Origin: Deltaproteobacteria bacterium RBG_13_43_22
GTDB taxonomy: Bacteria; Desulfobacterota; RBG-13-43-22
Direction: 5' to 3'
DNA: 64,000 nt
NCBI GenBank assembly: GCA_001797675.1
Contig: MGQB01000015.1
Location: forward strand, 62,001-126,000
Every line of letters starts with the position of its first letter. Within the stretch, counting starts at the first letter, position 1. Below the pieces are notes generated by a model. The model worked only from the letters and a program-made list of their open reading frames with translations, made no database searches and was not told where the DNA came from. A program made the position numbers and the translations under genes. Shown piece after piece: positions 27,723 to 37,420 of this stretch.

Positions 27723-29675
27723 TCACCCTTTCCGGGGGGTGACGATCGGGAAAAAGGGATCGAATTGATCGAGGAGGCCCGTAAATTCCACAAGTTTCGT
27801 CAAATCCCCTTCCACCACAAGCCGGCCCTCCGAGATAAGATCGGCCGCGGTCATAAGACCGGCCATCAGGTATTTGAAATCGAGGCTGGACAGGGATAAC
27901 TTCACCATTGGATGAGCATCCTGTCTGTCTCTAAAAGCATGAAGAACGGCGTTTTCCACAGTCAAAAGATAAGGGTCTTCACGGTCTGTAAAGAAAAGGT
28001 TAATGACAAAATGCTTGCCTTCTGCTTTGGGGCCGTTCAATCGCACGGCCAGGGCCTGAAAGAGATTCTCCAGAGGAATGCCCTGTACCATGCCCTTGCT
28101 CATTTTTCCGGGAAAGCCGCCGGGTAAACCGTGGCGAAGTTCAAAAGCGCCGGTCAGGTAAAAATTGCGCCATGGCCCCGATTCGGCCTGATAGCCCAGT
28201 TGTTCATAGGTGTCGGCCAGCAGGGCCCGGGCCTGAATATTTTCAGGGTCGGACAGGACCACATGATTCATCACCTGCGCCACCCAGCGGTAATCTCCTT
28301 CGTTAAAAGATTTCCGGGCTTTGGTGATGACCTCCTCAGCGCCGCCCATATAGTCCACATAACGTTCGGCGGCTTCCACCGGCGGCAAGGAATTCAGCGT
28401 CGCCGGGTTGCCGTCGAAGTAACCCAGGTACTTGACAAAAACCGCCTTGGCGTTGTGGCTGACGGTCCCCTAATAATCGCGGTTGGAGAAATTCCGGGCC
28501 AGACTTTTGGGTAGCCTTAATTGTTCGGCAATCTCTTCTTTGGTGTATCCGTGATTGGCCAGACGCAGGGTCTGGTCGTGGATGTATTGGTACAGATCGC
28601 CTTGCTGCTTCAAATAATCGATTACCTCCTCCCGCCCCCAGATCGGCCAATGGTGACTTGCAAACTGAACCTCCAGCTTGTCCCCAAAGAGAGTAATCGA
28701 TTCGTTAATCTGTTTGGACCAGGCCAGGGCATCCCGAACCTGCGCTCCCCGCGGGGTGTAAACATTATGTAAATGATGGGAGGTGATTTCCGACATACAA
28801 AGAGCGCGAAATTGGGGGAGATAGAAGACAAACTCGGCCACCGCTTCGGTGTCGGGGGTCATTTGAAAGACGATTTCAACCCCATCGATCACCCGGGTTT
28901 CCCCCGTTTCTTTTATGATGTCCGTCGGCATAACAAAACCAATTGACCCTTGCGACAGCAGAGCTCCCAGGCCGATGGTGATAAAGCCTTGGGTTGAATG
29001 AGGTAATGAATGTCCATACATATAATTGGCCCGGCGTCTCATGACGTTACCGGCCAGCACGTTCTCGCTGAGGGCGGCCTTGACAAACTGGTCCGGGGCG
29101 ATAACGGCCACCTTTCCGGCCGAAACATCCTCGGGATTAATCACGCCGAGCACACCCCCAAAATGATCGATGTGGCTGTGCGTGAAAATAACGGCTGTCA
29201 CCGGTCGCTGCCCCAGATATTGGTCAGCCAGATCAAGGGCGGCCCTGGAAGACTCGGCCGAGGTCAGGGGATCGATCACGATCCACCCGGTTTCTCCGCG
29301 GATCAAAGTCATATGAGCCAGATCAAAGGAGCGGACCTGATAAATGCCCTCGACCACCTCAAAGAGGCCGTGATGCAGGGCATTGAGCTGGGCCTGCCGC
29401 CAGAGGCTGGGGTTGGCGGTGGAGGGTGCTTCTCCGGAAAGAAAGTCCAGGCCTGAAAGATCGTAGGTTATTTTGCCGTCTCCCGGACGTAATAGGGTGA
29501 GAGGGGAAATACCGGCGATAAAACCACGGCCGGCATTTTCAAAACTTCGCCGGTCCTCAAAAGGCAGTTCCTTTAGTACCGCCATATTTTTATTAACCGT
29601 ATGTTCTGTTGCCGGTTTTGGCCCGGCGAGTTCTTCCGGTAAACCCGACGGATGGGTGGGAATGTTGGCCGCCAT
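27723..29675 (-). pseudogene. Alkylsulfatase-like (SdsA1/BDS1-type) metallo-beta-lactamase-fold enzyme interrupted by an in-frame amber codon
   Basis: ORFs 28470-29675 and 27723-28388 are in the same frame. The sequence reads ...[55 protein letters not shown]... with TAG at 28470-28472. THSHIDHFGG metal site in the N-terminal part, SCP2-like C-terminal domain after the stop. Confidence 0.82.
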
Positions 29676-31637: not shown

Positions 31638-32504
31638 ATGGTCGATTTTTTTTATAAAATTGTCGGGAGGACGGCCGTCTTCCTTCTCCTTTCAGTACTT
31701 TTTCTTTCTCCCTCCCTAGGGGCAGAAAAACAGCAGAAAAATATCATCCTGGCTACTACAACGAGTACCCAGGACTCGGGCCTTCTCGATGTCCTGATTC
31801 CGGTTTTTGAAAAGGAAACCGGCTTTTTTGTCAAAACGATTTCAGTCGGCTCAGGTCAGGCCATGAAAATGGGGGAAAAGGGAGAAGCCGATATGCTCCT
31901 GGTCCACTCCCCCGACACTGAAAAAAACTTCATCGCTCAGGGATTCGGGATCAACCGGATACTGGTTATGCATAATGACTTTGTTATTGTTGGGCCTCCG
32001 GCCGATCCGGCCAAAATCAAGGGCATGAAAACGACCAAAGAAGCCCTGAAGGTGATTGCCCAGACCGGATCTCTTTTCCTTTCCCGGGGGGATAATTCCG
32101 GGACCCATGCCAAGGAAAAGGGGCTCTGGAAGGCAGCCGGGGTCGTGCCCGAAGGTCAGAAATGGTTTCAACAGACCGGACTTGGTATGGGCCAGACCCT
32201 GAACGTGGCTGCCGAAAAGAAGGGATATACCCTCACCGACCGGGCCACTTACCTGGCCTTAAAGAAAAACCTCGGCCTCGAAATTCTCATCGAGGGAGAA
32301 CCGCTCTTGCTCAACATCTACCATGTCATCGAGGTGAACTCCGCCAAGTGGCCCAAGGTCAACACCGCCGGGGCCAAGGCCTTTGCCCAGTTTATGGTTT
32401 CCAAGAAAACCCAGGAGATCATCGGCAAATTCGGCGTAGCAAAATACGGTGCACCCTTTTTCTTCCCCGATGCCGGTAAAAAACCGGAGTCGCTTGGTTT
32501 GTAA
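31638..32504 (+). CDS. tupA: Tungstate ABC transporter substrate-binding protein
   Basis: ILATTTSTQDSGLLDVLIPVFEKETG, SRGDNSGTHAKEKGLWKAAG motifs diagnostic of TupA/WtpA-like proteins. Confidence 0.92.
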   Translation: MVDFFYKIVGRTAVFLLLSVLFLSPSLGAEKQQKNIILATTTSTQDSGLLDVLIPVFEKETGFFVKTISVGSGQAMKMGEKGEADMLLVHSPDTEKNFIAQGFGINRILVMHNDFVIVGPPADPAKIKGMKTTKEALKVIAQTGSLFLSRGDNSGTHAKEKGLWKAAGVVPEGQKWFQQTGLGMGQTLNVAAEKKGYTLTDRATYLALKKNLGLEILIEGEPLLLNIYHVIEVNSAKWPKVNTAGAKAFAQFMVSKKTQEIIGKFGVAKYGAPFFFPDAGKKPESLGL

Positions 32505-33202
32505 TGGAACTGATCCTTGACGGGATACTCAAGTCCTTCCAACTCCTGTTTACCTTGAATCGGGAGGTACTGGGAATCACCTTGCTCTCACTCCAGGTTT
32601 CCGGGACGGCCACGATTATCAGTGTGTTTATCGGCATATCGATCGGGACGGTGGTCGCCTTGAACCACTTTCCAGGGAAAAGGGTTTTGGTCAGCTTGGT
32701 CAATACGGGAATGGGCCTCCCCCCCGTGGTGGTCGGTCTGTTTGTTATGATCTTCCTCTGGCGCAACGGGCCTTTCGGTTTCCTGGGTATCCTCTATACC
32801 CCGACGGCGATGATCATCGCCCAGGCGACCATCGCCACACCCATCGTCATGGGAATCACCATCGCCGCCATCCAGAACCTCCCGGCTGATCTGCGGCTGC
32901 AGATCCTATCCCTCGGGGCCACCCGACTGCAAATGGTCGGGTTTCTCCTCCGAGAAGCGCGCCTGCCCCTCCTGGCGGCGATTATGGCCGGATTCGGCGG
33001 GGTTATCTCCGAAGTCGGGGCCTCCATCATGGTCGGCGGCAACATCAAAGGGTATTCCCGGGTCTTGACCACGGCCACGGTCATGGAATCCGGTATGGGA
33101 AATTTTGATATGGCCATCGCTTTGGGGATTATCCTTGTCCTGCTTACCTTTTTGGTTAACTACCTCCTTACCGTGATTCAGCAACGGGAACGTCCCCGAT
33201 GA
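32504..33202 (+). CDS. tupB: Tungstate ABC transporter permease
   Basis: GMGLPPVVVGLFV, EVGASIMVGGNIKGYSRVLTTAT; overlaps tupA and tupC ends. Confidence 0.92.
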   Translation: MELILDGILKSFQLLFTLNREVLGITLLSLQVSGTATIISVFIGISIGTVVALNHFPGKRVLVSLVNTGMGLPPVVVGLFVMIFLWRNGPFGFLGILYTPTAMIIAQATIATPIVMGITIAAIQNLPADLRLQILSLGATRLQMVGFLLREARLPLLAAIMAGFGGVISEVGASIMVGGNIKGYSRVLTTATVMESGMGNFDMAIALGIILVLLTFLVNYLLTVIQQRERPR

Positions 33203-34296
33203 ACCGCTCATCCAAAGTTATCGAGGCGGAAAATCTCAAAGTAGTCCGGGGACGGGTGGAGGTACTTGACATCCCTTCTTTTTATTTGGCCGACCGGGAG
33301 ATTCTCTCAATCATCGGCCCGAATGGGAGCGGAAAATCCACTCTCCTTTTGACCCTAAACGGTCTGCTCAAACCGGTCACCGGCTGCATTATTTTCCGGG
33401 GAAAAGAGATCAACTCGAGCCAGCCGGTTTTGGACTTCCGGCGCAGAATCGCCATGGTCTTTCAGGAGCCCCTCCTGTTCGACACGACCGTATTCAATAA
33501 CGTCGCTTCAGGCCTCAAGATCAGAGGGATACCGCGGGAGGAAATTAAAAAAAAGGTTTTGGAAGGCCTCGAACAGTTCAAGATTGTTCATCTGGCCGAC
33601 CGTTCGGCCCGTAAATTATCCGGTGGAGAAGCCCAGCGCACCTCCCTGGCCCGGGCCTTGGCCACAGGTCCCGAGGTCATCTTCCTCGACGAACCATTTG
33701 CCGCTTTGGATCCTCCGACCAGGCAGTCTATTACTGCCGATCTGGAAGGAATCATCCGTGAAACCGGGATTGCCGCTGTGTTGGTAACGCATGATGAATC
33801 CGAAGCGCTGCGGCTGTCGGACCGGATCATGGTGGTGAATGGGGGAAGGATTGTTCAAAACGGTTCTCCGGCCGAGGTCATGAACCACCCGGCCAACCTG
33901 TTTGTGGCCCAATTCGTGGGAATGGAAAGTGTCATAGCGGGTACAGTCCTGGCATGCAAGGACGGGGTGGTCACTATCTCCATTCCTGGAGGCGGGATAG
34001 AGGCCCTTGGGGAGCGGTTGCCGGGTGAAGAGGTATTCTGCGGCATCCGCCCGGAAAACGTGGTCATTGATATCCTTGATCCGACGAAATCGATGAAGGC
34101 CGGTAATGTTTTTTCGGCAAAGATTGCCGCTATATCCTCGATCGGTCCGTTCCTGAAAGTAACCGTGAACTGCGGTTTCACCCTGGTTTCCTATATGACC
34201 AGAGGATCCTTTACCGGATTTAAACTCGCTCTTGGAGAGAAAGTTTTCGCTTCTTTTAAAGCTGAAGATGTACATTTAATGTCCGAGAGGATCTGA
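33199..34296 (+). CDS. tupC: Tungstate ABC transporter ATP-binding protein with C-terminal TOBE-like domain
   Basis: GPNGSGKSTLL Walker A, LSGGEAQRTSLARAL, FLDEPFAALD; CGIRPENVVI tail. Confidence 0.92.
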   Translation: MNRSSKVIEAENLKVVRGRVEVLDIPSFYLADREILSIIGPNGSGKSTLLLTLNGLLKPVTGCIIFRGKEINSSQPVLDFRRRIAMVFQEPLLFDTTVFNNVASGLKIRGIPREEIKKKVLEGLEQFKIVHLADRSARKLSGGEAQRTSLARALATGPEVIFLDEPFAALDPPTRQSITADLEGIIRETGIAAVLVTHDESEALRLSDRIMVVNGGRIVQNGSPAEVMNHPANLFVAQFVGMESVIAGTVLACKDGVVTISIPGGGIEALGERLPGEEVFCGIRPENVVIDILDPTKSMKAGNVFSAKIAAISSIGPFLKVTVNCGFTLVSYMTRGSFTGFKLALGEKVFASFKAEDVHLMSERI

Positions 34297-34379: not shown

Positions 34380-35429
34380 TTAAATAAAATCGAGAAAACA
34401 CTGAGGATCTTCCGCTAATAAATGCCCTTCTCCTTTTGCCTGTGAATAGGCATAAGCAATAGCCCGGCACCCCCGACAGGCAGCCCATCGTTTACAAGAA
34501 CCGCACTTCCCCTGATATTGACTTCGGTCCCTGAGACTTTCCAGAATAGGAGAAGTCACCCATAATTCCCGTAGAGAATCTTTTCGTATGTTTCCGACCG
34601 AAACAGGGAGTCTTCGGCAGGGAGTGATCGTTCCATCAGGCAAAATGGTCAGCCCCGACACCCCGGCCGCACACCCCCCCAAAGGCACATCGCCGAGGTT
34701 CTCTGCGTCGGCAACCCAATCCATCTGTGAGGCTATGGGATCGCCGGTAATAATTTCAAGGCCGTCGAGTGGATTGGAAAAGATTTGCCGATAAAGGTCC
34801 CCTACCTTCTCCCTCGACAAGGTGTAAGGCAGAAGTCCCGCTCCCTTTCCTGAGGGCACCAATCTGGAGAATCCCAGTCGGTTTAACCCGAGTGATTTCG
34901 TTAACTCCACCATTTCCGAAATGTTTCCGGCATTGAGTTCGGATAGGGTCATATTCAGAGTTACGGTTATTCCTTCCGATATCAAATGGGCAATACCCTT
35001 GAGAGAGGCTGAAAAACTCCCCTTACCCCTGATCGATTCATGAATTTCTTCCGGTCCTTCCAGGCTGATTTGAACCCCTTTTATCCCCAAGTCGGCCAGT
35101 CTGACCGCCTTATCCCGATTAATTAAGATACCGTTGGACAACAGATACAGATCAAACCCTTTCCGGCCCATATCCTCTAAAATCTTAAAGAGATCTGCCC
35201 TTAAAAAAGGTTCTCCTCCGGTCACATTAAAACTTGGACTAAAAGAGATTTCGTAAGCCTCTGACCAAGCCTGGATCATCGCCCAAACCTCTCCTATTCC
35301 CTGCCTGATTTCAAACAAGGACATTTCCTGGGAAAACATCCCATCCTGATAGCAATGACGGCATCGCAGATTGCATCGCTCGGTCAAGTGCCATTGGACA
35401 AAAAAATCAAGGGAATTAACCGTTAACAT
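34380..35429 (-). CDS. Radical SAM/SPASM-domain protein (candidate peptide maturase)
   Basis: CNLRCRHC (CxxxCxxC), NVTGGEPFLR, C-terminal SPASM cysteines CAAG..ILPDGTITPCRR..CGSCKRWAACRGC. Confidence 0.92.
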   Translation of the reverse strand: MLTVNSLDFFVQWHLTERCNLRCRHCYQDGMFSQEMSLFEIRQGIGEVWAMIQAWSEAYEISFSPSFNVTGGEPFLRADLFKILEDMGRKGFDLYLLSNGILINRDKAVRLADLGIKGVQISLEGPEEIHESIRGKGSFSASLKGIAHLISEGITVTLNMTLSELNAGNISEMVELTKSLGLNRLGFSRLVPSGKGAGLLPYTLSREKVGDLYRQIFSNPLDGLEIITGDPIASQMDWVADAENLGDVPLGGCAAGVSGLTILPDGTITPCRRLPVSVGNIRKDSLRELWVTSPILESLRDRSQYQGKCGSCKRWAACRGCRAIAYAYSQAKGEGHLLAEDPQCFLDFI

Positions 35430-35528
35430 AAGCTGTCTGAATTTATTTCAGGTTTCGAGTTTTAAATTTAGGATTAATTCGTTAATGTTGTCCGGCTGGT
35501 TTCGGTTTTTTCGGAGCAGAGTCTTATT

Positions 35529-35588
35529 AAGAAGAAAGGGCGGGTAAGCCTACAGGATCAACCCCCGGCTTATCCGCCCTTTTTTTTC
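35529..35588 (-). terminator. Strong stem-loop terminator/attenuator between the small peptide ORF and the SPASM radical SAM gene
   Basis: Minus strand GGGCGGATAAGCC-...-GGCTTACCCGCCC then TTTCTTCTT; plus strand also ends in a T8 tract (potentially bidirectional). Confidence 0.75.
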
Positions 35589-35606
35589 GTTGCTATCCAA
35601 GCAACG
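35588..35606 (-). promoter_or_regulatory. Compact hairpin CGTTGCT-TGGAT-AGCAACG 3' of the small ORF (candidate bacterial SECIS-like element or part of the 3' UTR)
   Basis: 7-bp perfect stem and 5-nt loop read directly; the loop starts 26 nt after the first in-frame TGA and 17 nt after the second. Confidence 0.4.
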
Positions 35607-35625
35607 TTTAGGATTTTCAACTCTT

Positions 35626-35730
35626 TCACTTGTGGCATACCTTTCCAGGATTTTCCTTCAAGACCTTTTTCACTTTATCCCAGTAGGCAGCCTCCTTGGC
35701 CATGACCTTTGGGTTAAGCTTATTGGTCAT
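35626..35730 (-). CDS. 34-aa small peptide, candidate RiPP precursor: MTNKLNPKVMAKEAAYWDKVKKVLKENPGKVCHK (UGA readthrough would add UKSUKS)
   Basis: Strong SD GGAGGT 8 nt before ATG; start overlaps the stop of the B12-radical SAM gene (GATGACCAATAA). Followed by hairpins, then a SPASM radical SAM gene on the same strand. Below the ORF-track length cutoff. Confidence 0.75.
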   Translation of the reverse strand: MTNKLNPKVMAKEAAYWDKVKKVLKENPGKVCHK

Positions 35731-37420
35731 CCCGATCCACCTCCTTCCATTCATAGATATTTTCTATGATACCATCATTAAAAGTAATGTCAAAACTATT
35801 TTTTACCCTGATAACCTTCCCCTTTTGCGTTTTAATAATATCCAGACTGGTCCAAAAATTAAAAAACAAGCCGGCATTAAACTTGGGAAGCGGTTGATAA
35901 CCTTCCTTGGTGGCCGCATATAAACAGCCCTCCTTCAATAGCTTTTCGAAAAGTGCAACCCCGAGGGCTGATCTTTTCCCCATATTTCGGGCCAGATTCA
36001 AGGCTCCTCCAAGACCAATTGAATCTTCATGAAAACCAAGGCCTTTAATAAAATTGATGATCCGCGTGATAATAAAAAGGGTATAAATGTCTTCCCGTCC
36101 GAACTGATCGGTTTCCAGCCCCAGGGCCGTAAGCCGGGACCTAACCATATCCTCTTCGGTCTGTCCCGGAAACCTCTGAGCAATGGCGGTATTGGGTGTC
36201 AAATAAAAAGGCGAAGCGCCCAGGATAACCGGAAGCCGGGAATTCAGACACAGGGTCCGGATCATCGAATCCAGAGATTCCCCCGGAAGACCCAATATCT
36301 GATAGACAATGATCTTAAATCCCATTTGTGAGGCCTCCCGGATTACCTGGAGATATTTTTCCATTCCCTGCGGTCGCTGCGTTTCCCTCCGGATTATCGG
36401 ATTGGAGGTTACCAGGGAAAGATTCAGATGGGTAAAGCCGGCCTCTCTCATCAATTGCAGCAATTCCCGATCCAGACTTTGATAAGAGATCCCGTTCATG
36501 GCCAGTAATTCAATTTCCCCTGGCGGAAAACCCTGCCTGATTTTTCGGCAAAACTTTTTCATCTCCTCCCGATCGTAGGTCAGGTTATCATCTTCAAAAT
36601 CAAAAACCCGGTATCCCCCCAGATAACGACATTCTATTTCTTCGAATACTTTTTGGACGGATCGTCTTTTATAGCCGGGGAAGGTATTGTGCACCGAACA
36701 GAAAGAACATCGATGGGGACAACCTCTGGAGGTAATCACAAAACACAAGGGTCTCTTTTCATAACGATAGGTCTCCCGATCCAAATCTGAAAAATCCGGG
36801 ATTGGGAGTTCTTCAATGGGACAAGGACTACCGGGAGGATTAAAAAGCATCCGGCCATCCTGTTTGTATCCTAAACCGGGCACCTGCTCCAATCCCTTTC
36901 CCCCCTGCCAAGCCCTTATCAATTCCACCAGAGGCCGTTCCCCCTCCCCACGAATCACCCAATCCACTGCTGAATTCATAAGCATGAGTTCAGGCACGGC
37001 CGAGACATGGGATCCTCCGAGAACGATGGGGCAATTAATTTTCTTTTTAATCGCTGCAGCACATTGAAGCACTTCCCGAAAGTAAGGAGAAAAAAGCGAG
37101 GATATCCCCACTAGGTCCGGTTTTTCATGGGCCACTTCCCGGGCAATGGTTTCGAAAGGGGCCCCGAAATGATAATATTGATAAAATAAGGAGAAAGGGC
37201 TTTGGTCCGGAAAAGGGTAGTAATCTTTCAAATAGGTCAATTCCCCGGGCAAGGCAACGGTCCGTCGTCCACGGCCTTGATGGAAGTCTTTGATGACCAC
37301 CTCGACTTCCGGGAGATGTTTTTTTACCGCCGCCTTCAAATAAGCCAGGCCCAGAGGTTGCAGCCTTATCTCCGTATCGTAAAAATCCTGAATGGGGGGC
37401 TGGACAAGAACGAGTTTCAT
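35720..37420 (-). CDS. B12-binding domain-containing radical SAM protein
   Basis: N-terminal cobalamin-binding-like region (MKLVLVQPPIQDFYDTE...PDLVGISSLFSPYF), radical SAM CPHRCSFC. The start is trimmed from ORF 37519 to the M of MKLVLVQPP. Confidence 0.9.
   Translation of the reverse strand: MKLVLVQPPIQDFYDTEIRLQPLGLAYLKAAVKKHLPEVEVVIKDFHQGRGRRTVALPGELTYLKDYYPFPDQSPFSLFYQYYHFGAPFETIAREVAHEKPDLVGISSLFSPYFREVLQCAAAIKKKINCPIVLGGSHVSAVPELMLMNSAVDWVIRGEGERPLVELIRAWQGGKGLEQVPGLGYKQDGRMLFNPPGSPCPIEELPIPDFSDLDRETYRYEKRPLCFVITSRGCPHRCSFCSVHNTFPGYKRRSVQKVFEEIECRYLGGYRVFDFEDDNLTYDREEMKKFCRKIRQGFPPGEIELLAMNGISYQSLDRELLQLMREAGFTHLNLSLVTSNPIIRRETQRPQGMEKYLQVIREASQMGFKIIVYQILGLPGESLDSMIRTLCLNSRLPVILGASPFYLTPNTAIAQRFPGQTEEDMVRSRLTALGLETDQFGREDIYTLFIITRIINFIKGLGFHEDSIGLGGALNLARNMGKRSALGVALFEKLLKEGCLYAATKEGYQPLPKFNAGLFFNFWTSLDIIKTQKGKVIRVKNSFDITFNDGIIENIYEWKEVDRDDQ

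Follow-up and report, generated by a model that had tools for sequence, protein, structure and literature searches.

The window, by which we mean the whole 64,000-nucleotide stretch of contig MGQB01000015.1 of Deltaproteobacteria bacterium RBG_13_43_22 that was analysed, carries on its minus strand a B12-binding radical SAM gene, a very small gene and a SPASM radical SAM gene, in that order (Table 1). The initial annotation had taken all three as one RiPP locus, with a 34-residue peptide as the substrate. Both radical SAM reading frames were confirmed, with the Pfam domains given in Table 1, and so was the 34-codon reading frame (35626-35730, minus strand), whose ATG overlaps the stop of the B12 gene and which has GGAGGT 8 nt upstream. 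The idea of also checking a UGA-extended form of the peptide proved fruitful: the frame continues beyond UGA at codons 35 and 38 to give a 40-mer that ends at 35608. That is, the end of the peptide reads ...CHK-U-KS-U-KS-stop (U denotes selenocysteine, Sec), followed by a SECIS-type hairpin, and standard annotation misses the peptide because of the apparent stop at UGA.

Table 1. Features of the selenopeptide locus in the window.
Feature	Position	Strand	Basis or status
B12-binding radical SAM gene, PF02310 + PF04055, 566 aa from ATG	35720..37420	-	judged to lie outside the system
Sigma-70-like promoter of the peptide unit, TTGACA-16-TATCAT, TG before the -10 element, match 11/12	35766..35793	-	motif scan
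Shine-Dalgarno GGAGGT, 8-nt spacer to the peptide start	35739..35744	-	sequence
Selenopeptide gene, MTNKLNPKVMAKEAAYWDKVKKVLKENPGKVCHK-U-KS-U-KS, stop TAA, 40 codons	35608..35730	-	conserved family
UGA codon 35, predicted to be read as Sec; stop of the 34-codon ORF	35626..35628	-	TGA in 79/80 loci, TGC (Cys) in 1, TAA/TAG in 0
UGA codon 38, predicted to be read as Sec	35617..35619	-	TGA in 79/80 loci, TAA in 1
SECIS-type hairpin CGUUGCU-UGGAU-AGCAACG, 26 and 17 nt past the two UGAs	35588..35606	-	bacterial SECIS model; covariation in 5/7 pairs
Larger hairpin between peptide and SPASM gene, not in all relatives	about 35535-35582	-	candidate attenuator or processing element
SPASM radical SAM enzyme, 349 aa, PF04055 + PF13186, conserved peptide partner	34380..35429	-	Pfam, orthologue alignment, co-occurrence

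Elsewhere in the window, tungstate-type ABC transporter genes (31638-34296, plus strand) are convergent with the SPASM gene; their TupA-like product scored 252.8 bits vs. a cut-off of 400 and their WtpC-like ATPase 278 vs. 440. A metallo-beta-lactamase/alkylsulfatase-like gene (27723-29675, minus strand) is seemingly split into two ORFs through a frame change, and a leucine carboxyl methyltransferase-family protein (PF04072; 40695-41663, plus strand) has an apparent signal peptide, which is unusual for a SAM methyltransferase.

A scan of GTDB, one genome per species, with the SPASM alignment as query yielded 80 loci, mainly from Nitrospirota and Desulfobacterota, most of which carry the peptide gene. 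It is important to note that the collection pattern was open to every amino acid, and to stops, at codons 35 and 38, and that codon counts among these loci, which share kinship, are not counts of independent events. The pattern expected of a bacterial selenoprotein, with UGA kept or replaced by a Cys codon and not by UAA or UAG, was found (Table 1). The codons that follow the UGAs vary across the 80 loci, with AAG/AAA at K36, AGY and TCC at S37, AAG/AAA at K39, and AGY and TCN at S40, and 52% of the pairwise codon differences in this part are synonymous in frame vs. 20% and 30% in the two shifted frames. The position after residue 40, the true stop in most of the loci, is TGA (28 loci), TAA (24), TAG (7) or a sense codon. 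Other genomes of the phylum have the same ORF ahead of their SPASM gene, continuing in frame with K-x-UGA-K-x and then a hairpin with a GGU-type loop. Judged from these comparisons, translation past both UGA codons as Sec is very well supported. Over the rest of the peptide, E13, W17, C32 and position 35 are invariant in a 30-row alignment, with position 38 conserved at 90% or more; the N-terminal two thirds are basic and helix-like, and the counterpart in genome G001 shares 88% identity. An upstream sigma-70-like site matching at least 10/12 positions was found in 38 of the 80 relatives, vs. 1.6 expected.

A natural Sec-to-Cys change was seen at U35 only, at locus L056 (CLS-C-KG-U-KSK), and no all-Cys version of the peptide occurred in any examined locus; a profile match without stops in genome G609, considered as such a form, turned out to be an HNH-type protein. 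Genome G193 has two copies each of the peptide and the SPASM gene on contigs C68 and C128 (L204, L208, L211), and one of its peptide copies has TAA in place of the second UGA.

The bacterial SECIS model calls for a stem of 4-16 bp, a loop of 3-9 nt with a G in the first two positions, a distance of 16-37 nt from the UGA and an MFE of -7.5 or lower (PMC13188914). By script, the model was satisfied for both UGAs in 78 of the 80 loci, and its MFE limit in 79, with the distance from U38 to the loop being 16-18 nt in most loci, the lower limit of the model. In a 27-sequence alignment of the hairpin, 97.2% of cells were paired and 27 cells had changed on both sides, with such double changes in five of the seven stem pairs; none of 500 shuffles equalled the pairing, the double-change cell count or the covariation score, and the pairing was destroyed when the partner strand was slid. 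The hairpin of the window folds at -9.4 kcal/mol (z = -2.9), and its loop is UGGAU, whereas almost every relative has a GGU-type loop; the G at position 2 accords with the model. A scan against Rfam gave no family match for the hairpin, the listed ones being chance matches to miRNAs or leaders. What these data point to is a bacterial SECIS located beyond a stop codon and serving two UGA codons. A second overlapping ORF (MPQVKELKILNVAWIATK..., 35570-35638, minus strand), nearly unchanged at the DNA level in G001, was considered as an alternative precursor and rejected as an artefact of SECIS conservation, with no such ORF in the other loci.

The UGGAU loop is common to the genus (window 35588-35606; L044) in place of GGU and possibly reflects a shifted SelB specificity; GGC or UGGA loops are seen in the in-frame-UGA FlpD genes of this genus, where the loop sequence is under coding constraint. 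At six loci (L053, L056, L057, L140, L150 and L242) the SECIS meets or overlaps the start of the SPASM frame, so that an RNA hairpin serves the upstream gene from the start of the next; three of them (L053, L056 and L057) form one branch, in which the SECIS is at the SPASM coding start and the two genes abut. A recurrent hairpin after the SECIS, with a GGCAGATATGGC-like stem, lies between the peptide and the next gene in 11 of the 80 loci vs. 0.1 expected, in two phyla (L045, L047, L048, L054, L093, L101, L118, L126, L128, L144 and L145).

Part of the machinery for Sec insertion was found in the organism itself, whose genome encodes a tRNA-SeC with a TCA anticodon; it also has four FlpD genes, each with a single in-frame TGA. 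Of 18 genomes tested for SelB, 16 carry it, including all near-complete ones, the two genomes in which it was not found being the own assembly (G000, 85% complete) and G003 (76% complete). Scores for tRNA-Sec passed the Rfam threshold in 361 of the phylum's 396 genomes, although the same model also passed it in 5 of 14 controls.

Gene content was compared across samples of Desulfobacterota (n = 396) and Nitrospirota (n = 245; the phylum of G402, the genome of locus L148), 641 genomes in total; in the Desulfobacterota sample, enzymes 45% or more identical to that of the window were counted as the SPASM clade. As expected of a RiPP system, a small encoded peptide is tied to a putative modifying enzyme: peptide and SPASM clade occurred together in 48 of the 641 genomes and one of them alone in three (peptide in two, SPASM gene in one). 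Specifically, the peptide profile, which matched the own genome at E = 6.7e-15, had matches in 18 of the 396 Desulfobacterota genomes, 17 of which have both genes and are all the SPASM-clade carriers of the sample, the remaining one (G004) having the peptide only, at a contig end. Both genes were found in 31 Nitrospirota genomes, the SPASM gene only in G412 and the peptide only in G648, the 33rd profile match being the HNH-type protein of G609. Carriers of the peptide make up 13% of the Nitrospirota sample and about 5% of the Desulfobacterota sample. Further, among nine genomes in which no peptide adjoins the SPASM gene, eight carry the peptide elsewhere. The SPASM gene is the true partner of the peptide, and joint action of the two is strongly implied.

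Among the neighbouring genes, a YceI-fold gene (PF04264) lies near 26 examined loci, of which L164 and L212 have identical sequence. It sits between the peptide and the SPASM gene in L164 and L212, and directly next to the peptide in three genomes where the latter is unlinked from the SPASM gene; it is a frequent third member of the system. A PEMT/ICMT-like methyltransferase neighbours nine loci and a flavin disulfide reductase a few; neither is general. No conserved protease or transporter was found among the neighbour genes examined, though such genes may be located at other sites in the genome. Since the analysis revealed neither a protease nor an exporter nor an RRE domain, nothing points to a secreted RiPP product. 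A plasmid search gave no match. At five loci (L131, L133, L148, L157 and L163) a divergent small Cys-rich gene, with a C-terminus of about ...QKSCKGFEGCPGFKGK, lies upstream of the SPASM gene; this gene recurs where the selenopeptide does not adjoin the SPASM gene.

The SPASM enzyme has the CxxxCxxC motif (C19-C23-C26) and seven SPASM cysteines (C253, C271, C309, C312, C318, C321 and C344), all invariant in 14 orthologues. Its radical SAM core begins near residue 10, without an N-terminal extension, leaving no room for a fused RRE domain. Neither this enzyme nor the B12 radical SAM enzyme scored above any curated NCBIfam cut-off, the top scores of the SPASM enzyme (TIGR04545, TIGR04055 and TIGR04340) being 160-195 bits vs. 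cut-offs of 400-500. The nearest solved structures are SkfB (6efn, 6e-27), PqqE (6c8v), CteB (5wgg) and a sulfatase maturase. Sacti- and ranthipeptide synthases join Cys sulfur to the carbon of nearby residues, and SPASM enzymes of this branch make S-to-C or C-to-C joins in peptides.

Our best reading is a new family of Sec-containing precursors resembling those of RiPPs, in which the SPASM enzyme modifies the CxxUxxU tail. We consider it probable that a 40-mer with two Sec arises through UGA recoding and has its tail modified by the dedicated enzyme. Under this model, one hairpin just past the stop codon would serve UGA codons 35 and 38, the N-terminal two thirds with the invariant E and W may be the recognition or leader part, and the tail C-x-K-U-K-[G/S]-U-K-[S/T] would be the reactive core. 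We infer from the genomic pattern that the SPASM enzyme binds the peptide and modifies it, most likely at the U/C tail because PapB forms a selenoether with a Sec-substituted peptide, via its auxiliary cluster (PMC10470005), and SbtM accepts peptides with either Sec or Cys, a thiooxazole being present in the Cys product (PMC11002830). The most likely chemistry would join Se (and S) to the carbon of nearby residues, and the matured seleno-peptide would serve in anaerobic redox or metal chemistry, frequently together with the YceI-fold protein as carrier or partner; the leader may be removed, and the bond type and the final role of the matured peptide are a guess on our part. In its most specific form, which we offer tentatively and consider less likely than not, the proposal is that these ribosomal selenopeptides are a class of their own, new to science: the dedicated SPASM enzyme would link the two Sec and the Cys to carbon, and the peptide-derived product would serve anaerobes as a Sec-requiring seleno redox cofactor or as a metal ligand.

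The alternative that survives best, unlikely as we judge it, is that the peptide is itself a two-Sec redox or metal-binding protein, with the SPASM enzyme working in the same pathway, in electron transfer or on another substrate, without modifying the peptide. CxxU and UxxU are typical of such selenoproteins (PMC13188914) and some genomes have the peptide beside the YceI gene, away from the SPASM gene. A 40-mer is, however, too short for a redox fold, its co-occurrence with the enzyme is almost one-to-one and with one SPASM clade only, and the closest solved relatives of that enzyme modify peptides.

The hairpins of the locus bear on a second and clearly less probable alternative, according to which the ORF is a selenium-sensing leader and the ribosome at the two UGAs controls a hairpin upstream of the SPASM gene. 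The initial annotation had placed a strong hairpin and T-tract before that gene; a hairpin is indeed there (Table 1), but under strict criteria no terminator was detected in the stretch that separates the peptide from the SPASM gene. Such an intervening hairpin occurs in the window and at many other loci, and two UGAs close to it would sense Sec-tRNA. A leader role nevertheless sits poorly with E13, W17 and C32, which are far from the UGAs and invariant with free third positions, with the lack of an attenuator at L053, L057, L140, L150 and L242, where the SPASM start is at or inside the SECIS, and with the retention of the peptide even when it is unlinked from the SPASM gene.

It is highly improbable that the UGA is a real stop, with the 34-mer as product and the conserved DNA beyond it as an RNA element only: standard annotation would end at the UGA and the hairpin is conserved, but codon 35 is never TAA or TAG in 80 loci and once a natural TGC, serine codons swap between AGY and TCN after both UGAs, and the second UGA is conserved in phase. 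Of the initial proposal that the 34-mer is the substrate, the part that stands is a real, conserved gene that is paired with the SPASM enzyme and encodes a plausible RiPP-type substrate; the 34-mer itself lacks the conserved two-Sec tail.

Equally hard to credit is the original three-gene view, in which both radical SAM enzymes and the peptide make up a single RiPP cluster with C-methylation: the genes are contiguous in the window and in G001, yet no B12 homologue was found near any other SPASM locus among those examined, G002 and G061 have the B12 gene without an adjoining peptide, and a promoter-like site of its own precedes the peptide unit. The small ORF is paired with the SPASM gene and not with both radical SAM genes, and the claim that both enzymes act on the peptide is not supported, the B12 gene being adjacent in only two examined loci. 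In G002 (76%), G004 (60%) and G061 (50%), what follows the B12 orthologue is unrelated DNA or an unrelated gene, not the peptide or SPASM gene; G001 alone shares the B12-peptide-SPASM arrangement, and with no linkage outside these two sister species among the loci examined the B12 gene was rejected as a partner. The G001 orthologue ends at 540 aa, about 125 nt ahead of the peptide, so that the extra C-terminus in the window is a read-through of DNA that is non-coding in the sister and that holds the sigma-70-like site ahead of the peptide (Table 1), and the overlap of the B12 stop with the peptide ATG is incidental.

Turning from these alternatives to our preferred reading of a Sec-containing precursor with its own SPASM enzyme, the peptide-SPASM pair of Nitrospirota and Desulfobacterota is undescribed in the resources searched. 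With Cys substituted for Sec in the query, neither Pfam nor NCBIfam gave anything credible for the peptide, it is absent from a 2026 compilation of 119 prokaryotic selenoprotein families and subfamilies (PMC13188914), and no description was found in a literature coverage without most subscription journals and preprints. The multi-Sec UxxU selenoproteins (FmdB-like and the metal-binding NF041115) share two Sec spaced by two residues, but have other folds and no radical SAM partner listed (PMC13188914). AhbD, NirJ and ACGX (TIGR04545, TIGR04055 and TIGR04340) have haem or other partners and no selenopeptide. SkfB, CteB, PapB and PqqE, maturases of sactipeptides, ranthipeptides and cofactors, belong to the same superfamily as the enzyme here, but their substrates present Cys or other standard residues, and the enzyme here has no N-terminal extension. 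The SbtA/SbtM system (selenobacteriocin or thio(seleno)oxazole RiPP; precursor TIGR04081, maturase TIGR04082) shares a Sec precursor, a SECIS right after the UGA and a SPASM maturase (PMC11002830, PMC13188914); in contrast, the peptide here has no SGUG motif and no TIGR04081 match, its core is CxKUKxUK at the extreme C-terminus, and its enzyme scored 130.9 bits against TIGR04082, below the 350-bit cut-off for membership. SbtA is the only natural Sec-bearing precursor family of a radical-SAM RiPP found in the literature searched, and the family described here, with two Sec in a 40-residue product, offers a compact and directly testable system for SPASM action on selenium.
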